DNA of 40,711 nucleotides. Source: a virus. The notes beneath the pieces are model-generated. The model did not search any database. It was not told the origin of the DNA and saw only the letters and a program-made list of their open reading frames with translations. Location of the stretch: positions 1 through 40,711 of IMG/VR virus record IMGVR_UViG_3300044527_000988. One strand, given 5' to 3'. The translations under genes and the position numbers were made by a program. Position 1 is the stretch's first letter. Each line of letters starts with the position of its first letter. Positions 352-34,055 of the stretch are shown in pieces.

Positions 352-703
352 CGGCCACCCCCGCGTGCAGCTCGGGATTCGGGCACTCACCAGCGCCCAG
401 CCAGGAGGAGCCGCACAGGGCGCACACCCGGGTCGGGACCGCGACCACCGGGCCGAAGTCGCCGACGCTCGGCACCCACTCCTCCGCGGACGGCACCACG
501 CGCTCCGGCGCAGGGTCCACGGTGGCACCGCGGAGCTCGCGGAGGGCAGCGGCCACCGACGGCGGCACCGCTGCGGGCGGCAGGGCCAGCTCGGCGCGCA
601 CGGCGGCGTGGTAGTCGCCGCGCGCCAGGGCGTCGGCGAGGTCGCGCAGCACGGCGATGCGGACCGCGAGGGCGGTCCGCGCGGTGTCGACGGCGTCACC
701 CAC
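341..703 (-). CDS. Hypothetical protein with CxxC motif
   Basis: A 120-aa protein starting at GTG 703, inside the last 8 bp of the preceding gene. The N-terminal half is helical and Ala/Arg-rich. The C-terminal part has VCALCGSSWLGAGECPNPELH, that is CxxC plus a further Cys and a His, suggesting a small zinc knuckle. It belongs to the leftward operon that starts beside the operator at 927-953. Function is not recognised. Confidence 0.7.
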   Translation of the reverse strand: MGDAVDTARTALAVRIAVLRDLADALARGDYHAAVRAELALPPAAVPPSVAAALRELRGATVDPAPERVVPSAEEWVPSVGDFGPVVAVPTRVCALCGSSWLGAGECPNPELHAGVADAG

Positions 704-914
704 GGAACACCTCGACGGAGTCGGGGTCGAGGCGGCGCATCATGCCGGCCCAGTCGGCCTTCGTCGCCTCCCACCGGGCGTCAGCGTGCGCCGCTTCGTC
801 CTGGCGGCGGGCGGCGTCGAGCAGGTCGGCGTCGACGGTGCAGAGGCCCGACGCGTGGCGCAGCGCGAGGCGTGCGGGCGGGGCGGTGGTTCGAAGGGGG
901 TTGGCGCGGGACAT
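696..914 (-). CDS. Hypothetical protein, first gene of leftward early operon
   Basis: A 72-aa protein. The start at ATG 914 is chosen because GGGAGGAG lies just upstream, ending about 6 nt before it; an earlier in-frame ATG would run through the operator. The sequence is helical and charged, ending DPDSVEVFRG, and matches no family I recognise. As the promoter-proximal gene under the left operator it holds the position occupied by N in lambda, but no antitermination motif such as an arginine-rich N-terminus is obvious. Confidence 0.75.
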   Translation of the reverse strand: MSRANPLRTTAPPARLALRHASGLCTVDADLLDAARRQDEAAHADARWEATKADWAGMMRRLDPDSVEVFRG

Positions 915-926
915 CGGGGCTCCTCC

Positions 927-953
927 CGTACGGCCACTGTCCGTGGCCTTACG
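927..953. promoter_or_regulatory. Left operator (oL-like), 27-bp palindrome
   Basis: The inverted repeat has arms close to CGTAAGGCCAC and GTGGCCTTACG separated by 5 bp, with one arm mismatch here (CGTACGGCCAC). It lies 13 bp upstream of the start codon of the leftward operon, where it would block initiation. A near-identical copy lies at 1566-1592 on the other side of the repressor gene. It is the presumed binding site of the protein encoded at 1062-1547. Confidence 0.8.
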
Positions 954-1061
954 CTGGAGAACCTTACCCACACTTTGCGTGGCCTAGCCACTACGAACTG
1001 CGCGCATGCGCGGCTAGCCGGCGTTGGTGGCCGGAAAATAGTTCATCGCTCAACCGAGCGC
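954..1061. other. Intergenic region upstream of leftward operon
   Basis: This lies between the left operator and the 3' end of the repressor gene. It holds a further small palindrome, GTGGCCTAGCCAC at 979-991, and a relatively AT-rich patch (GGAAAATAGTTCATC around 1033-1047). The leftward promoter must lie here or overlap the operator, but I cannot fix a convincing -35/-10 pair. No open reading frame is evident. Confidence 0.5.
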
Positions 1062-1565: not shown

Positions 1566-1592
1566 CGTAAGGCCACTTCTGGTGGCCTTGCG
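1566..1592. promoter_or_regulatory. Right operator (oR1-like), 27-bp palindrome
   Basis: Arms CGTAAGGCCAC and GTGGCCTTGCG are separated by TTCTG. The site agrees with the left operator at 927-953 at most positions, including both GGCCAC/GTGGCC cores and the outer CGTA/CG bases. It sits between the divergent repressor (start 1547) and Cro-like gene (start 1632), so occupancy would affect both. Confidence 0.8.
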
Positions 1593-1602
1593 GCGCGGGA
1601 TG

Positions 1603-1629
1603 TGGTAGACCACTTCGGGTGGGGTGACA
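1603..1629. promoter_or_regulatory. Weak second right operator (oR2-like)
   Basis: A degenerate copy of the operator centred on CCAC-TTCGG-GTGG, with the same 5-bp centre spacing; each arm matches 7 of 11 consensus positions. It lies immediately before the Cro-like start codon and overlaps its GGGTGGGG ribosome-binding sequence. A strong and a weak site in tandem would fit cooperative repressor binding; this is inference. Confidence 0.45.
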
Positions 1630-1631
1630 GC

Positions 1632-1946
1632 ATGTCTGACGAGACGTTCGGTGGTCGTATCCGTGCCCGGGCCCTGGCCCTTGGCATCGTAGACGACCGG
1701 GGAAGGGCCACCGCGGCCCGTCTGGCTGAGTTCCTGTCCGCGCGGTGGCGCATCGAGATCAAGCCGCGCACCGTCGAGGCGTGGCTCGCGAACGAGCGGG
1801 TGCCCCGCACCGGTCGCATGGTGCGCCTGCTGACGGAGCTGACCATCCACGGCGACGAGCGCGACGAGCTGCTCGCCCTGGCTGCGGAGGTCGAGCCCGA
1901 CGAGGCCCCGCCGATCGACTCCACCGCTGCCGCCGACGTGGCCTGA
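1632..1946 (+). CDS. Cro-like HTH regulator
   Basis: A 104-aa protein with ATG at 1632 preceded by GGGTGGGG. The stretch TAARLAEFLSARWRIEIKPRTVEAWLANERVPRTGRMVRLLTEL is an HTH in which RTVEAWLANERVP reads as the recognition helix and following loop. It is the first gene of the rightward early operon, divergent from the repressor, so a Cro role is the natural reading. The C-terminal tail is acidic and Ala-rich. It could instead be an unrelated transcription factor, since the identity rests on position plus a generic HTH. Confidence 0.7.
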   Translation: MSDETFGGRIRARALALGIVDDRGRATAARLAEFLSARWRIEIKPRTVEAWLANERVPRTGRMVRLLTELTIHGDERDELLALAAEVEPDEAPPIDSTAAADVA

Positions 1947-9086: not shown

Positions 9087-9620
9087 ATGTGGCTCGTGGC
9101 GTTGCTGGCGTGTGAGCGGGGAGAACAGGGGCCGCAGGCGCGGGTGAAGGTGCAGGACAGCACGCCCGCGCACAGCACGCCGGGGCCGACGCACAGCGCG
9201 GCCGAGGTGGTGCACACGGGCACTCTCCCTGCCCTGCACACGGGCGAGCCCTGTGGTGCGGCTGGGGGCCTGGGGTGGCAGGTGCTCGAGTGGCAGGAGG
9301 AGACGGTGGCCGACCTCGAGGTGTCGCCGTCCGGCAGCGCGGCGGTGATCGGGCGCCTGCTGGTGCCGTTCGGTGAGGCGCTCGACGTGTGCTCCGCCAC
9401 CTGCTCCGAGCCGTGGGCGCTGGTGCTCCTGGGCAGGCCGGGCGAGCACTGCACCGACCGTCCCGCCACCCTGCCGCTGCTCGACGTCGAGGAGGGCGAG
9501 GAGGTGCACGTGTGCGTCGCGGTGTACGAGCCAGGGGCGGATTCGGATACGACGTGCGAGATCACGGCGGGCGAATGGGCGCAATCGTTCCACGTGACAG
9601 CGTACTGCGCGGATTGCTAG
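9087..9620 (+). CDS. Phage-encoded lipoprotein
   Basis: A 177-aa protein, ATG 9087 with GGAGG upstream. It opens MWLVALLACERGEQG: a very short hydrophobic signal ending in a lipobox (LLAC), so cysteine 9 would be lipidated. A Thr/His/Pro-rich linker follows (DSTPAHSTPGPTHSAAEVVHTGTLPALHTGEPC), then a beta-rich domain with paired cysteines (DVCSATCSE; HCTD; HVCVAVY; TTCEIT; YCADC). The protein would sit on the cell surface or inner-membrane face. It lies between early and late operons, the usual place for a lysogenic conversion or superinfection-exclusion gene; that role is inference. Confidence 0.75.
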   Translation: MWLVALLACERGEQGPQARVKVQDSTPAHSTPGPTHSAAEVVHTGTLPALHTGEPCGAAGGLGWQVLEWQEETVADLEVSPSGSAAVIGRLLVPFGEALDVCSATCSEPWALVLLGRPGEHCTDRPATLPLLDVEEGEEVHVCVAVYEPGADSDTTCEITAGEWAQSFHVTAYCADC

Positions 9621-9658: not shown

Positions 9659-9732
9659 GTAACCCCCGGAGGGCGCCAACCCGCGTTACACGCGTTACGA
9701 CACCCGTTACAGTCGGATGCGCTCCGCGTTAC
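9659..9732. repeat. GTTAC boxes upstream of the late operon
   Basis: GTTAC occurs at 9685, 9694, 9706 and 9728 (start positions), and inverted as GTAAC at 9659. The last two overlap the -35 and -10 of the late promoter. Such clustering in 75 bp of a noncoding gap suggests binding sites for a late activator or repressor. Confidence 0.5.
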
Positions 9733-9742
9733 ACTGTAGCGG
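9707..9742 (+). promoter_or_regulatory. Late promoter upstream of terminase genes
   Basis: -35 TTACAG at 9707-9712, 17-bp spacer, -10 TACACT at 9730-9735. The ATG at 9743 lies only 7 nt beyond the -10 box, where transcription would begin, and there is no ribosome-binding sequence. The transcript is therefore expected to be leaderless. ACAGTCGG at 9709-9716 recurs near other late promoters. Confidence 0.6.
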
Positions 9743-10330
9743 ATGGAGCCGAACCCGAAAGCCGTACTGTCGTGGATGTCTGAGGTTCCCGGCCGCACAC
9801 CATCCGACGCGGTCGCGCGGTTCTGGCCCACGGCGCACGAGTCCGAGCTAACCCGACTCTCCACCCGTGTCCGGCAGTGGGTCTTCCGCGCGCGCCGGGA
9901 GGGTGGCCACGAGCCTGCACCACCCCCCGCAGAGCCCACCCTCGGGCGCCGTTCGGGCCGTCCGCGGGTCCACGAGCCCGCGGAGGTGGTTCCGCCCACC
10001 CCTGCGCAGGCCCTCGGCGCCGTCGAGCGCCCTGCGGCCCGCCTCGAGGTCACGGGCTGGACCCGCCTGCAGTACCTCGAGTGGGACCTCGTGGAGTGCG
10101 TGCGTGACCTGGACCACGCGCGCGCGACGGGGCAGATCAAGCTCGCGATTGACGCCGGCCGGCGAGCCTCCGACGTCCGGGCGGCGCTCGACCAGGCCCG
10201 CGGCGAAGCCGGCCGCGCGGTTAAGCTCGACCGCAACCCCGCGGCCGTGGCTGCGGAGATGGCCCGACGGCAGCAGCAGCTTGCGCAGCTGGCCGCCGCC
10301 CCGGGCGCCACGAAGGATCGGGACCTGTGA
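9743..10330 (+). CDS. Putative terminase small subunit
   Basis: A 195-aa protein, first gene of the late region. The N-terminal segment (MEPNPKAVLSWMSEVPGRTPSDAVARFWP, then LSTRVRQWVFRARREGG) looks like a DNA-binding HTH. A Pro-rich linker leads to a long helical part (ARLEVTGWTRLQYLEWDLVECVRDLDHARATGQIKLAIDAGRRASDVRAALDQARGEAGR) suited to ring oligomerisation. Small terminases recognise the packaging site and load DNA on the large subunit, encoded two genes downstream. Family membership rests on context and domain plan. Confidence 0.6.
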   Translation: MEPNPKAVLSWMSEVPGRTPSDAVARFWPTAHESELTRLSTRVRQWVFRARREGGHEPAPPPAEPTLGRRSGRPRVHEPAEVVPPTPAQALGAVERPAARLEVTGWTRLQYLEWDLVECVRDLDHARATGQIKLAIDAGRRASDVRAALDQARGEAGRAVKLDRNPAAVAAEMARRQQQLAQLAAAPGATKDRDL

Positions 10331-10659
10331 GGCACACCGACGAGCTCGCCTGGATGGCCCACCACCTACGCGCCGCAGCCGAGCGGGCGCGCGGCTCGTG
10401 GGCTGACGCGCCGACGCCGCCCGCGCCCCCGTGCTGGTGTGGCGTGGTGCACTGCGTCCCGCTCGACCACCGCAGGATGGAGGTGCTCGGCGAGAAGTGG
10501 ACCGGGCGCGGGTGGGCCGAGTACGGCACGAACCCCGCCTACTCGTGGGTGCTTCGCGCCGGGGTGGATGCGTTCGAGCGGGCGCTGCGCGCTGAGGCGC
10601 CTGCGTTGTGGGCCGCGGTCGAGTCGGATGCCCTCGTGGCCCGCGCGGCGCTGCGGTGA
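10327..10659 (+). CDS. Hypothetical protein between terminase genes
   Basis: A 110-aa protein from GTG 10327. It contains CWCGVVHC in the middle (possible metal site), then YGTNPAYSWVLRAGVDAFERALRAEAPALWAAVESD. It is coupled by 4-bp overlaps on both sides to the terminase genes. No family recognised. Confidence 0.6.
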   Translation: MRHTDELAWMAHHLRAAAERARGSWADAPTPPAPPCWCGVVHCVPLDHRRMEVLGEKWTGRGWAEYGTNPAYSWVLRAGVDAFERALRAEAPALWAAVESDALVARAALR

Positions 10660-12104
10660 GCGACCTCGACGAACTCGTCGCAGCCCAGGCCGATGACCTC
10701 GAGTGGCTGGCACAGGTCGAGGCGCAGTACCCGCTGGCGCTGGCGTCCCTGTGGACGGCCCCGGCGGCGCGGTGGGACCAGCGGCGGTCGGTGCTCGCGG
10801 CGATGACCGCCCCCGTCGTCTCGCTCGTGCTGGGCGGGGAGCGCGCGGGGAAGTCGCGCGGGCTGCAGCAGCTCACCACGGCGATGGCACTGGGTGGCGA
10901 CCACCCCGCCGTCCGGGCCTGGCTCGCGGCGAACGACCTCCCGACCCACCTGATCCCCGACGGTCCCGGGCGCGTGTACGCAGTGGCACTCACCTCGACA
11001 GCGTCGCTCCGGTACCACCGGAACATCTTCGACCAGCTCCTCGGCACCGGGAAGACCTGGTACAACCGGAACGGGAAGGGCGAGGCGTGGCTCCAGATCG
11101 ACGTTCCCGGGCACAGCAGGGCGGGGGAGATCTGGTTCAAGAGCGTTGACCAGGGCCCGGACGCGATGCAGGGCGACTCGATCCGGTGGGCGTGGATCGA
11201 CGAGGAGCCGAAGGGCGAGCAGGGCCAGCTGGTGTACGCCCAGTTGAAGGCCCGCGTGATGGACCAGCGGGGCCGCGTCGGGATCTCGATGGTGCCGATG
11301 TCCGGGTACACGTGGGTGTACGACGAGCTCGTGGTGAAGCGGAAGGACTCGCCGACCATCGTGGAGCTCGACGCCCTCGACAACCCCTTCCTCCCCCGCG
11401 ACCGTGCCGAGGCGCACTACGGCGCGATGGACAAGGATGAAGCCGAGATGCGGCGGTATGGCCGCTTCGTCTCCCGGATGGGCGCCGTGTACCCCACCTG
11501 GGACCCGACCGGGTCGGACCGGTACGGGATGGGTCACGTGTGCGACCCGTTCCCTGTGCCTCCCGACGCGCCGATCTTCCGCGCCGCGGACTTCGGCCTC
11601 GCCGACCCCACCGTCATGCTGTGGGCCTTCGTCGACGACGACGGCACCATCTACGTGTTCCGCGAGTACTACCAGCCCGACGGCATCTCGTACCGCTGGC
11701 ACGCGGAGCAGTGCGCCCACCTCGAGGGGCGGCGCGTCGTCGACGGCGAGTGGAGCGGCGGGGAGCCCGTAGAGGCCGGGTGGGGCGACCACCTGCCCGA
11801 CGCGCTGCAGGCGTTCGCCGCGGTGGGCCTGCAGATGGGCCACGCGGAGAACGGCAAGAAGGACGTCAACGGCGGCGTCGACCGGGTGCGCGACCGCCTC
11901 CGCCTGCGCTCCGACCACCGGCCGCGGCTGAAGGTGTTCTCGAGCTGCGTGAACACCATCCGCGAGATGAGCGGCTACGTGCTCGACCCGCAACGCCGCG
12001 ACGAGCAGCCCCGCAAGCTGCACGACCACACCTGCGACACGCTGCGCTACCTCGTCGGCGGAATCGACGACTACTTCGCCGTCGGGATCGCCGCTGGGGC
12101 CTGA
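10656..12104 (+). CDS. Terminase large subunit
   Basis: A 482-aa packaging motor. The N-terminal ATPase has Walker A GGERAGKS at 60-67, Walker B IRWAWIDEE at 176-184 with the catalytic Glu, and the coupling segment GISMVPMSGYTW near 209-220. The C-terminal RNase H-like nuclease begins with FRAADFGLADPTVMLW, giving the metal-binding Asp at 312, and ends with HDHTCDTLRYLV containing further acidic residues. The motor cuts concatemeric DNA and pumps it through the portal. The gene ends 34 bp inside the oppositely oriented portal gene. The packaging type (cos or pac) cannot be read here. Confidence 0.92.
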   Translation: MSDLDELVAAQADDLEWLAQVEAQYPLALASLWTAPAARWDQRRSVLAAMTAPVVSLVLGGERAGKSRGLQQLTTAMALGGDHPAVRAWLAANDLPTHLIPDGPGRVYAVALTSTASLRYHRNIFDQLLGTGKTWYNRNGKGEAWLQIDVPGHSRAGEIWFKSVDQGPDAMQGDSIRWAWIDEEPKGEQGQLVYAQLKARVMDQRGRVGISMVPMSGYTWVYDELVVKRKDSPTIVELDALDNPFLPRDRAEAHYGAMDKDEAEMRRYGRFVSRMGAVYPTWDPTGSDRYGMGHVCDPFPVPPDAPIFRAADFGLADPTVMLWAFVDDDGTIYVFREYYQPDGISYRWHAEQCAHLEGRRVVDGEWSGGEPVEAGWGDHLPDALQAFAAVGLQMGHAENGKKDVNGGVDRVRDRLRLRSDHRPRLKVFSSCVNTIREMSGYVLDPQRRDEQPRKLHDHTCDTLRYLVGGIDDYFAVGIAAGA

Positions 12105-13606
12105 GGGATCCGCAGCGCCGCGCGGGTGATCTGCGCCGCCCGGCCTGCCGTCAGGGGCTCGCCGCTCTCCGCAGCCTGGCGCGCGGCCTCGAGGAGCACG
12201 GGCGCGATGGCCAGCGCCGACCCCACCGGGTCCGGGTCACCGGCGAGCTCGAGCGCACCCGCCAGCCGCCACTGCTCCTGGTTGTCGTCGGCCTCCCCGG
12301 TCGCGACCCGACCCACTGCGGCCGTGTACCAGGCCGAGAGCGCCGCCGACTGCCGAGAGGGCTGGTCGTCGACCTCCGGCTTCGGGCGGCTCGACTCCCT
12401 CGACGACGGCGGCACGCCCACCGGGGCGTCGCGGAAGCCCTCGTACGAGGCCGCTGCCCTCGGGTCGGCGCCCATCACGGTGACCCAGAACCCGGCGCGC
12501 GCCTGGCGCTGGTCGTAGCTGGTCTGGAGCGCCTCCACGGCGGACGTGTCGAAGCGCACCTCGTCGGAGGCCGACCCGCCGACCTGCTGCGCGATCACGG
12601 TCAGGGCCTCGGCGATGAGCGCCAGATCCGAGACGACGAGCGAGCCCCAGTAGTCGCGCATCTCCGCCTTGGCGACGGCGAAGTTCGCCTGCGGGATGCC
12701 GGCCCGGGTGGGCGGCACGCGGAGCACCGAGAGGGTCTCGTCCCGGACGGCGGTGTCGAGCCCGCTGAAGTCGACATCCTTCGCCGTCCACGAGGTCGAC
12801 GAGACGGTGGGGCCGCCCGACAGGGCGAGCACGCCGACCCCCGAGGCCATGGCCGCCAGGTACTGCTCGACGACCTCTTTGAGCGCCCGCGGTCCGACGG
12901 TCTGCGCGGACGGGTACGTGATGATCACGTCGGGACGGCCCTTCCCCGCCTGCGCCGCGGCGAAGGCGCGCGACTTCTGCACGGTCAGAAGGCCATCCTT
13001 CAGCGTGCGGATCGCGCTCTCCCCGTACAGCGCCGACAGCCCGTCCGACCACGAGACGTCGTGGATGTGTTGCACCTCGAGGGGCGAGAGCCGGACCTCG
13101 CCGCCGTAGATCCACCGCACGATCACGCCGCCGCGCACCTCGGCGCGCATCTGTTCGGGGTGCAGGCGGTGGAGTTCCCACTCGTTGATCCCGACCGAGC
13201 GCAGCCACAGGTACGCGTTCCCGGTGAGGGAGAGGTCGGCCTCGAGCTGGCGCAGGAGCAGCGTGCGCGTCACCCCCGGCGACGGACGCTTGAGGAGCCG
13301 CAGGAACGGGTGGCCGGGCACCTGCTCGACTCCGTCGGGGCCTTGCACCACCACGATCGGAAGCCCCCCGACGTCGTCGCACCGCGCACGGATGCAGGCG
13401 CGGACCCACGGGAACGCGGCCATCGCCGACAGCGCGCCGAGCTGCGAGAAGCCCGGCTGCACCGGGTACCCGGCGTACCCCGCTGAGGCGGTGATCTCGA
13501 TCGGTGCGAGCAGCTGGCGCACCCACCCTCCGACCGTGTCGCGCGCACGGGCGAGGAGTCCGGGGCGCAGCGCGAGGGACGTGGACGACGGGTCGGCAGG
13601 TGGCAT
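12071..13606 (-). CDS. Portal protein (HK97-type), encoded on the opposite strand
   Basis: A 511-aa protein starting at ATG 13606. Portal hallmarks are visible: VRACIRARCDDVGGLPIVVVQG, FLRLLKRPSPGVTRTLLLRQLEADLSLTGNAYLWL, LHPEQMRAEV, VQHIHDVSWSDGLSALYGESAIRTLKDGL, DFSGLDTAVRDETLSVLRVPPTRAGI and NFAVAKAEMRDYWGSLV. The last 90 residues are a less typical Ala-rich helical tail. The portal forms the dodecameric vertex through which DNA enters. Here it runs against terminase and capsid genes, overlaps the terminase end by 34 bp and has its own promoter-like -10 box 7 nt upstream. Confidence 0.92.
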   Translation of the reverse strand: MPPADPSSTSLALRPGLLARARDTVGGWVRQLLAPIEITASAGYAGYPVQPGFSQLGALSAMAAFPWVRACIRARCDDVGGLPIVVVQGPDGVEQVPGHPFLRLLKRPSPGVTRTLLLRQLEADLSLTGNAYLWLRSVGINEWELHRLHPEQMRAEVRGGVIVRWIYGGEVRLSPLEVQHIHDVSWSDGLSALYGESAIRTLKDGLLTVQKSRAFAAAQAGKGRPDVIITYPSAQTVGPRALKEVVEQYLAAMASGVGVLALSGGPTVSSTSWTAKDVDFSGLDTAVRDETLSVLRVPPTRAGIPQANFAVAKAEMRDYWGSLVVSDLALIAEALTVIAQQVGGSASDEVRFDTSAVEALQTSYDQRQARAGFWVTVMGADPRAAASYEGFRDAPVGVPPSSRESSRPKPEVDDQPSRQSAALSAWYTAAVGRVATGEADDNQEQWRLAGALELAGDPDPVGSALAIAPVLLEAARQAAESGEPLTAGRAAQITRAALRIPQAPAAIPTAK

Positions 13607-13619
13607 GCATGCGATTGTA
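13607..13619 (-). promoter_or_regulatory. Portal promoter -10 element (leaderless)
   Basis: Read leftward, TACAAT occupies 13619-13614, followed by 7 nt (CGCATGC) and then the portal ATG at 13606. No ribosome-binding sequence is present. A good -35 is not visible at the usual distance (TCGAAT with a 17-bp spacer), so an activator may be needed. Confidence 0.55.
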
Positions 13620-13630
13620 TCGCGTCGTGA

Positions 13631-13666
13631 TGACAGATTCGACACAGTCGTGATAGCGTCTCTGTC
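13631..13666 (+). promoter_or_regulatory. Head operon promoter (leaderless), divergent from portal
   Basis: -35 TGACAG at 13631-13636, 17-bp spacer, -10 TAGCGT at 13654-13659, then 7 nt to ATG 13667. Geometry is identical to the promoter at 9707. CGACACAGTCG at 13641-13650 (from CGACACAG with flanking base) lies between the boxes and may be a regulator site. Confidence 0.5.
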
Positions 13667-14476
13667 ATGGGTGCAGATCTCGACCTCGACGACCTCGACG
13701 GGCTGGCCTTCGCCGGCCGCAACGGCGCGCACCACACCTGGCGTGCCGAGGGCAGCGCTGCGGACGGTGCCACCGTTGACGAGGGTTCGGCGCGCTTCAT
13801 CCTGTACGGAGGCGGCGAGGTCCGCTACAACCCCCAGTGGGAAGCCGGCGGCGACGTGATCGCCACCCGCGAGTTCCGACTGGCGCCGTTCCGTCGGAAC
13901 CCAGTGGTCCTCGCCGATCACGACCCGCTGCGGGTGATCGGCGTCGGCACCGCGAAGATCGTGCAGGATGGAGACACCGCCCGCCTCGAGGGCGCGGTCC
14001 AGTGGGACCTGCACGAGAGCAACCCCACCGCCATCCTCATCGCTGGCCAGCACGCGCGCGGCGTGCGCAAGGCCGTGTCGATCGGCTTCATGCCGGGCAA
14101 GGGCAGCGTGGCGCGCACGAAGCTCCCCGAGGGCGACCGCTGGCGGCTCGATCCCGACACCGTGCCCGAGTGGCGCGCAGGCCAGTACTACCGCCACCCT
14201 GAGCTGTACGAGTGGAGCTCGGTGGCCGTGCCCCGCGACCCCACCGCGCTGCAGCTGCAGTCGTGGGCGCTCGCCTCCGAGGACCCGCAGGAGCAGATCC
14301 GCCGCGCCGTGCGCGAGGTGCTCGCCTCCTCGGCCGCCGAGGTGGTGCTCGACGCCGTGCGCCACGACCCGGCGATCCGCCAGTCCATCCAGGCCGCAGC
14401 ACTGCTCGCGGCGCCACCGCCCACCATCACCCCGCCTTCCCCGCTCGATGCGTGGTGGGCCACTCGGAGCGCATGA
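13667..14476 (+). CDS. HK97-type prohead maturation protease
   Basis: A 269-aa serine protease that trims the capsid scaffold domain during maturation. The expected catalytic residues appear in family context: His85 in VVLADHDPLRVIG, Ser138 in KAVSIGFMPG, and an acidic residue (Glu182) in ELYEWSSVAVPRDPTALQL. Length is typical. The C-terminal 70 residues are helical and Pro-ended and may contact the scaffold. It overlaps the capsid gene by 4 bp (ATGA). Confidence 0.88.
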   Translation: MGADLDLDDLDGLAFAGRNGAHHTWRAEGSAADGATVDEGSARFILYGGGEVRYNPQWEAGGDVIATREFRLAPFRRNPVVLADHDPLRVIGVGTAKIVQDGDTARLEGAVQWDLHESNPTAILIAGQHARGVRKAVSIGFMPGKGSVARTKLPEGDRWRLDPDTVPEWRAGQYYRHPELYEWSSVAVPRDPTALQLQSWALASEDPQEQIRRAVREVLASSAAEVVLDAVRHDPAIRQSIQAAALLAAPPPTITPPSPLDAWWATRSA

Positions 14477-16072: not shown

Positions 16073-16519
16073 ATGCTTTCCCTCCTCGCGGCCATGGCCG
16101 CCCTGCTCACCACCGAGGCCGCCGCACAGCAGGCCGCCTCGCTGTGTGTCGACTTCACCTACGCCGCCAACACCGACGACGAGCGCTACATCCCGATGCC
16201 CTTCACGGGCTCGTACGAAGTGACCGGGATCATGTTCGCTCCCGCGACCGCCGTGGCGGTCAACGCGAGCAACGTGAACGCCTTCACCGTCGCGATGAAC
16301 GCGGGCACGGCGTCCACCTCGTGGACCACGCTGGCGTCGCACACCACCGACTCCGATCTCACCAGCTCGGCCTACGTGATCGGCACCGTGATCGACCTCA
16401 CGGTGACGAAGCCCGCGACCGTCAGCCGTGGCTACCAGTTCCGGGTCGAGAACACCAACGGCGGCACCGGCGCTGCCTTCGACGGCGCGGTGTGCATCGC
16501 GCTCCGCAAGGTGGGCTAA
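16073..16519 (+). CDS. Probable capsid decoration or head fibre protein
   Basis: A 148-aa protein directly after the capsid gene, ATG 16073 with CCGGAGC upstream. Most of it is Thr/Ala/Val-rich beta structure (TAVAVNASNVNAFTVAMNAGTASTSWTTLASHTTDS), as in small decoration proteins. The first 23 residues (MLSLLAAMAALLTTEAAAQQAAS) look like a secretion signal, odd for a virion protein assembled in the cytoplasm. They may simply be a buried hydrophobic helix. Confidence 0.55.
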   Translation: MLSLLAAMAALLTTEAAAQQAASLCVDFTYAANTDDERYIPMPFTGSYEVTGIMFAPATAVAVNASNVNAFTVAMNAGTASTSWTTLASHTTDSDLTSSAYVIGTVIDLTVTKPATVSRGYQFRVENTNGGTGAAFDGAVCIALRKVG

Positions 16520-26891: not shown

Positions 26892-26951
26892 GAGGCACTC
26901 CGCACAGTCGGATAGCCCGACACAGCGGTCACGTGATACAGTCGGGTTGCG
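26892..26951 (+). promoter_or_regulatory. Promoter-like gap with ACAGTCGG repeats
   Basis: The gap holds ACAGTCGG at 26904-26911 and 26938-26945, with CCGACA inverted at 26917-26922. TACAGT at 26937-26942 could be a -10 box, preceded by TGA (extended -10 form), ending 9 nt before ATG 26952. No ribosome-binding sequence is present, so this too may be a leaderless start. No good -35 is visible. Confidence 0.45.
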
Positions 26952-27311
26952 ATGTCTGTTACCCTCCCGAACTTCACCGCCGAGCGCCATGACGACGTCG
27001 TCATCGCCGACACCTGGTATCGGCTGGTGCAGCTGGTCGACGGCGACGGCACCGGCTTCGACCTCACCGACGCCACCGGAACCGGCGAGGTCTACAACGA
27101 CTCGGGCACGCTCGCCACGATCACGGTGGGCGCTGTCGGGCACGCGTCGTACCTGATCACGGCCGGCTGGCTCGCGCTGTCGATGGCCGCGACCGTCACC
27201 GACGACCTCACCCAGCAGCGCGCCCGGTACCGGGTCCGCCTGACGTGGTCCTCCCCCGCGTGGGCGATCACGATCCTCGAGGGCGACCTCGAGATCCGGG
27301 CGGTCTGGTGA
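26952..27311 (+). CDS. Small tail/baseplate protein
   Basis: A 119-aa beta protein (SVTLPNFTAERHDDVVIADTWYRLVQLVDGDGTGFDLTDATGTGEVYNDSG, ending AITILEGDLEIRAVW). The pattern of an applied-value or range domain (LTDATGTGEVYNDSGTLATITV) is typical of short baseplate upper proteins in tail-tip gene clusters. It begins a second late sub-operon after the gap at 26892. Confidence 0.6.
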   Translation: MSVTLPNFTAERHDDVVIADTWYRLVQLVDGDGTGFDLTDATGTGEVYNDSGTLATITVGAVGHASYLITAGWLALSMAATVTDDLTQQRARYRVRLTWSSPAWAITILEGDLEIRAVW

Positions 27312-32593: not shown

Positions 32594-32914
32594 GGTGTGG
32601 CTCCGCTCGGGGGCTCAACCGCCCTCCGATGGATATATATTCACACGCCGCCGGGAGACCGGCAACCCTCACGCGAAAATATATTCGCGACGCTCACCGA
32701 CCCACCCTCACCGGGCCGGCGGAGCTGGGCCAGACGTGGGCCAGCTTCGGCCCCGTTGGGCGCTCCCGGGCTGGCCCAGTCTGGGCTACGATCCGCTTCG
32801 CAGGCTGATCCTGCACCCGAAGTGTACTCCCAAGGGGAATCGCTCACGTCAGCCTCCCGTGCGGGTCGTCGAGGAGGTTGGGCCAGCGGCTGGGCCATAC
32901 CAGTTTTGGCAAAC
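32594..32914. other. Noncoding region with AT-rich palindrome and TGGGCCA array
   Basis: No convincing gene is present. The left part has ATATATATT (32633-32641) and a palindrome CGCGAA-AATATA-TTCGCG (32672-32689), very AT-rich for this genome; a leftward promoter for the operon at 32593 probably lies here, with CGGCAA (TTGCCG read leftward) at 32660-32665 as a possible -35. The right part holds TGGGCCA at 32726, 32737, 32879 and 32891 and its complement TGGCCCA at 32772. Confidence 0.6.
32726..32897. repeat. TGGGCCA/TGGCCCA word array
   Basis: Five copies of a 7-bp word occur in 172 bp: forward at 32726-32732, 32737-32743, 32879-32885 and 32891-32897, inverted at 32772-32778. Two pairs are spaced 11 and 12 bp, close to one helical turn. 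The arrangement suggests paired binding sites for a regulator, recombination accessory protein or second origin. Confidence 0.5.
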
Positions 32915-33732: not shown

Positions 33733-34055
33733 GGGCGCACCTGGCCGAGGCTCCGGCACTCGTTCTCGCCGATGGCCCCGTGCTTCCGGAGATACTCCGA
33801 GGCCAGCGCCACGGTGTAGGCGTCTTTGGCGCGGTAGTCGGCTTCCCCGTACGTCCCGCTGTGGAGCAGGACCAGCGTGCCGTTCTGTGGCAGCCCGTCG
33901 CGCTCCCGCTCCTTGCGGCGCGCGAAGTCGAGCGCGAGCGCCGCGTTGTCCATCACGTCGCCCCGGTCGTAGTAGGTGACGCGGAGCACGTAGTCTCCGG
34001 CGGAGAACCCGGCAAACGCGGGGTGGACGTCGAAGGGGTCACGTTCGTTCAGCAT
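33729..34055 (-). CDS. Hypothetical protein
   Basis: A 108-aa protein with GGAG upstream of ATG 34055 (ERDPFDVHPAFAGFSAGDYVLRVTYYDRGDVMDNAALALDFARRKERERDGLPQNGTLVLLHSG). Mixed alpha/beta, no recognised motif. It is the first gene downstream of the inverted repeat beside the integrase. Confidence 0.6.
   Translation of the reverse strand: MLNERDPFDVHPAFAGFSAGDYVLRVTYYDRGDVMDNAALALDFARRKERERDGLPQNGTLVLLHSGTYGEADYRAKDAYTVALASEYLRKHGAIGENECRSLGQVRP

Follow-up and report, generated by a model that had tools for sequence, protein, structure and literature searches.

Among phage transcripts that begin at the start codon itself are those of lambda cI and similar repressors. Lambda is credited with the first leaderless case, and such genes are common in Actinobacteria, Deinococcus-Thermus and some delta-Proteobacteria (PMC3160421). 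Experiments in Deinococcus established that a -10 motif located 6-7 bp before an open reading frame drives leaderless mRNA (PMC12340547), and most of the middle and late mRNAs of Thermus phage phiYS40 are leaderless (PMC3594737). In the open-access literature we found no account of a phage group in which a leaderless promoter is conserved at the portal gene. The leaderless mechanism is already known, and its conserved link to the portal gene appears to be undescribed.

The locus considered here comes from an uncultivated tailed phage, IMG/VR record IMGVR_UViG_3300044527_000988, and the whole stretch of 40,711 bases that was analysed is called the window. Its G+C content is 69-76% along its length (72% is also quoted for the genome), and it encodes an integrase, an ERF recombinase, a terminase large subunit (terL), a portal protein, a putative protease, a capsid protein, a tail tube protein and a tape measure protein. 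A search of isolate phages found no DNA-level resemblance to the packaging region, and isolate phage matches to window proteins were only distant and mixed and indicated no single host. Scans of genome contigs for a host with the portal and the integrase found no relative, and an Rfam search gave no matches.

Three genes of the packaging region have a TANNNT box exactly 7 nt before their ATG. The first of these (9743..10330, +) encodes a 195 amino acid putative terS and has the box TACACT (9730..9735, +), with a -35-like TTACAG (9707..9712, +) 17 bp upstream. The protein has no Pfam or PHROG match, and a profile comparison with the relatives' counterpart revealed no similarity, so its name reflects only its position before terL (10656..12104, +; Terminase_6N, E 1e-6; PHROG terL), which is homologous to the relatives' terL. 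The second gene encodes the portal protein of 511 amino acids (12071..13606, -; Phage_portal PF04860, E 7e-32), and its box is TACAAT (13614..13619, -). The third encodes a putative prohead protease of 269 amino acids (13667..14476, +; PHROG 617, E 3e-7, a major head protein family), with homologues that lie behind the portal gene in the relatives. Its box is TAGCGT (13654..13659, +), with an extended TG at 13651-13652 and a -35-like TGACAG (13631..13636, +) 17 bp upstream. Judging from their gene content, the three units would be expressed late. A preliminary description of the window had reported these hexamers, spacings and coordinates, and all of them are correct on re-reading the sequence. 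It had also assigned a TKACAG -35 at 17 bp to two of the promoters; this element is present at terS and the protease, but the matches are modest to weak and can alternatively be read as GTTACA (9706-9711) and ATGACA (13630-13635) at 18 bp. No -35 is recognisable at the portal, and a generic promoter scan, which requires 9 of 12 matches, recovers none of these promoters. The fourth candidate in that description, TACAGT (26937..26942, +; extended TG 26934-26935), is real, though looser, as it lies 9 nt before the ATG of a gene matching PHROG 1084 (26952..27311, +). No relatives of this gene were useful for testing the 9-nt spacing.

The geometry is rare in the window. TANNNT occurs at 39 sites on both strands, a density of 0.00047-0.00052 per base per strand, and the number expected at any one distance over the 69 called genes is 0.034, compared with three observed at exactly 7 nt. 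The probability of three or more genes at one distance is about 6e-6, or about 2e-4 if any of 39 distances is allowed. The two strands together contain 2,760 ATG/GTG/TTG triplets, of which only five are preceded by TANNNT at exactly 7 nt, and the three of these that are ATG are the starts of terS (9743), portal (13606, -) and protease (13667).

These three genes also lack a ribosome-binding sequence, as had been proposed. Their pairing energies with the anti-Shine-Dalgarno sequence are +1.7 (terS), +0.3 (portal) and +0.5 (protease) kcal/mol, compared with -4 to -11 for most genes, and equally poor pairing is otherwise found only in a few operon-internal genes. By contrast, the gene at 34055 (-) has an ordinary leader, with TACAGT followed by 24 nt that include GGAG and then by ATG. 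The arrangement does not extend to the whole late class, however, because most of the other structural genes retain Shine-Dalgarno sites, including the capsid-region and tail genes at 16073, 16521, 18677 and 20419.

Relatives sought with the terL, capsid and protease proteins consisted mainly of one contig, 3300035666_000169, which shows no difference from the window across the 13.9 kb compared; it provides no evolutionary information, and these searches were therefore useless for conservation. The portal protein, followed by a nine-member alignment, gathered 39 loci that contain the portal 5' end. These form 25 clusters at 75% amino-acid identity, referred to here as lineages, most of which are about 25-37% identical to the window portal, and every in-frame start was allowed. 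The motif search in related phages that had been suggested as a check found the same portal geometry in 14 of the 25 lineages, counting the window: TANNNT precedes the start by 6 nt in ten clusters and by 7 nt in four, and by 3-5 or 8-11 nt in none. Of the 18 portal promoters listed, some of which are related, 12 have a TTG -35 at a spacing of 16-18 bp from the -10, compared with 0.58 expected. Examples are TTGACA-17-TACGCT-6-ATG (L022), TTGCTA-17-TAACGT-6-GTG (L010), TTGCCT-17-TAGGGT-6-GTG (L005) and TTGCGC-18-TACGGT-7-ATG (L009). The exact box at 6-7 nt is missing in the other 11 lineages, three of which have degenerate or shifted boxes. L008 has a degenerate -10, TAAACC, at the equivalent place, and L035/L036/L044 have an exact TTGACA, 17 bp, a degenerate CACGCT and 6 nt; some of the lineages without a box, e.g., L037, use a Shine-Dalgarno sequence instead. 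A C immediately precedes the start codon in 16 of the 18 listed promoters. This frequency exceeds the general rate only modestly, as about half of the window genes have a C there too; a C at this position is consistent with the pyrimidine-purine initiation sites known in mycobacteria (PMC3898074). The recurrence of the box at the portal of many distantly related phages argues that it is a selected feature and not chance.

The same comparison bears on whether the start codons were misassigned, that is, whether the true starts lie downstream behind Shine-Dalgarno sites, with the TANNNT boxes being either ordinary promoters or chance occurrences. The starts first picked by a simple composition-based caller were different ones at terS and at the portal, and N-terminal residues are the least conserved ones. 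However, the similarity of the window portal to those of L002-L004 begins at residue 4-10, so its start cannot be much farther downstream, and the exact spacing of 6-7 nt to the start is kept in the relatives despite differing boxes and leaders. We consider misassigned starts very improbable. The true portal frame is the one starting at 13606, which matches Phage_portal, and not the overlapping frame of ATG 13610. The predicted portal mRNA start (13604-13619, -) is near ATGCATG, in which the out-of-frame ATG 13610 is 4 nt ahead of the true start, and so it depends on the exact transcription start which of the two ATGs would be 5'-terminal.

The box geometry recurs in three lineages at the gene that precedes terL and occupies the terS position: L007 and L010 (TTGACG-17-TAAACT-6-GTG) and L011/L014/L015 (TTGCGG-17-TAGTGT-6-GTG). 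At the other genes in the relatives' contigs, with the portal and terS matches removed, TANNNT at 6-7 nt is at the background of other distances, and therefore the feature is tied to certain genes that begin transcription units and is not genome-wide. Four control phages were scanned at their annotated starts. TANNNT at 6-7 nt is absent from phiC31 (51 genes), Myxococcus phage Mx8 (82) and Pseudomonas phage D3 (55). It occurs three times, each at 6 nt, in Thermus phage P23-45, whose host belongs to a phylum with many leaderless genes. Two actinophages with a distantly related terL were also scanned. Cellulosimicrobium phage DS1 has no TANNNT-led gene at this spacing, and in Arthrobacter phage Jasmine (L053:1397) TTGACA-17-TACGGT-6-ATG stands ahead of gp2, with which a rightward operon opens. 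The Jasmine box looks like a leaderless promoter, and this phage is culturable.

Taken together, it is highly probable that these boxes belong to sigma70-type promoters that yield leaderless mRNA, in an arrangement conserved for the portal. We predict that RNA polymerase, presumably with the host primary sigma factor, would initiate on the first base of the start codon or within one base of it, because the -10 box is placed 6-7 nt before that codon. The resulting mRNA would be translated from its 5'-terminal AUG or GUG by the ribosomes of a host assumed to be leaderless-competent, and most genes farther down each unit would initiate at ordinary Shine-Dalgarno sites. The portal would be the constant element in a wide range of uncultivated tailed phages, transcribed from a leaderless promoter of its own that is located behind terL and in some of them follows a terminator-like hairpin, and the terS-position gene would also be leaderless-promoted in several of them. 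The preliminary suggestion that transcripts begin at the ATG is thus supported, as a prediction, by the portal geometry across lineages, the sigma70-like -35 elements and the recurrences at the terS position.

Alternatively, the -10 boxes could be real promoters that share the work with upstream promoters or read-through; much of the mRNA would then be leadered, with only a minor leaderless form. The gene at 9144-9620 is co-directional with terS, and no terminator was found in the 122-nt gap between them. However, read-through leaders would have no Shine-Dalgarno sequence before terS, portal or protease, and in the window read-through from terL cannot serve the portal, which is on the opposite strand. 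Furthermore, strong terminator-like hairpins part terL from portal in L007, L010 and L030, which fits a separate portal unit. A largely leadered mRNA is therefore quite unlikely. A stem is also present between terL and portal in L002 (4118-4160) and in L003/L004; its paired bases differ, the loop GGCAACCGAGACG is common to them, and it could be read either as a terminator or as a structured RNA.

The orientation of the portal cistron is peculiar to the window. In the relatives, terL, portal and protease are co-directional, with the start of the protease gene either adjoining or overlapping the end of the portal gene, and the protease has no promoter of its own. Unlike in every relative examined, the window portal cistron is inverted with respect to terL and the protease; it ends convergently within the end of terL, and its start is 60 bp from the protease start. 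The portal and protease promoters are back to back inside those 60 bp, with their -35 regions adjoining. By this comparison, the portal promoter would be the conserved one, moved with its gene, and the leaderless promoter of the protease would be specific to the rearranged window phage because the portal cistron is inverted here. The three units had been described as sharing one geometry, but they differ in how widely it occurs: the portal and terS-position promoters recur in relatives, and the protease promoter is specific to the window. No convincing inverted repeats flank the portal segment, and so it is unlike a reversible switch and the reading as an invertible segment was rejected. The inversion is a possible rearrangement, and an assembly error is less likely; the identical contig may come from the same reads and therefore cannot rule on this point.

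A further suggestion, which we make tentatively and consider doubtful as it stands, is that many kinds of uncultivated phages keep the portal as a separate, obligately leaderless unit that is selected per se, strongly enough that in the window phage it survived a whole inversion together with its promoter. A leaderless portal might, for instance, hold the low copy number per capsid or permit translation under a changed late ribosome state.

Another explanation involves the heptamer ACAGTCG, of which the window has five copies. Four are in the promoter regions of terS, the protease and the gene at 26952 (9709, 13644, 26904 and 26938, all +), and as many shared 7-mers among the three regions arise in 1.2% of shuffles. 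This would be compatible with a phage-encoded or phage-modified polymerase factor that reads the promoters as a true late class and has a shared site such as ACAGTCG in its signal. However, the motif was noticed after the fact, its offset from the ATG varies (about -34, -23, -48 and -14), and the -35/-10 pattern of the relatives is of the ordinary sigma70 type, all of which makes such a factor unlikely. The varying positions rule out ACAGTCG as a fixed promoter element.

Several other sequences in the window have a regulatory appearance. The ACAGTCG copies near the terS, protease and 26952 promoters are a possible operator. Four copies of CGTTAC (9684-9733) are upstream of and overlap the terS -10, and the palindrome TACAcTGTA covers that -10 itself. 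Another palindrome, GTAAGGCCAC-N5-GTGGCC, precedes the genes at 696-914 (-) and 1602-1946 (+), at about 920-955 (-) and 1570-1600 (+), respectively, and looks like a shared operator. Finally, a 321-nt gap (32594-32914) contains two TATATT boxes (32636 and 32680) in this G+C-rich genome and could be an attachment site or a regulatory site close to the integrase.

Sequence alone indicates that a broad range of uncultivated phages have conserved leaderless initiation within their packaging module, at particular genes and not across the genome. The arrangement offers a clean test of why a phage uses leaderless mRNA for a low-copy structural protein. The box geometry also aids in setting start codons in GC-rich phage genomes, where the composition-based caller missed the starts of terS and portal.

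Compared with the systems described above, lambda cI is a leaderless repressor made in lysogeny, whereas the window genes concerned are packaging genes. Thermus phages phiYS40 and P23-45 resemble the window in that boxes yielding leaderless mRNA (predicted here) precede phage genes, and no sequence relationship to either was found. There an entire temporal class is leaderless, whereas here only the first genes of units would be and the other structural genes are led by Shine-Dalgarno sites. A late regulon of the phiYS40 kind would also involve a shift of host IF2/IF3 in the course of infection. As in the window, the box of Arthrobacter phage Jasmine gp2 heads a rightward operon that leads to terminase and capsid genes, and the later genes are mostly led by Shine-Dalgarno sites; however, only gp2 has a box in Jasmine, and its terminase and portal genes have none. 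The leaderless genes of Deinococcus-Thermus and Actinobacteria are similar in form and share TANNNT 6-7 nt before ATG or GTG, the lack of a Shine-Dalgarno sequence and an optional -35 at 17 bp (PMC12340547, PMC3160421, PMC3898074), and the window terS box, TACACT, is the commonest Deinococcus variant. In those bacteria the arrangement serves cellular genes of all functions, whereas here it is restricted to the head genes of phage packaging units, and the relatives have a conserved TTG -35.
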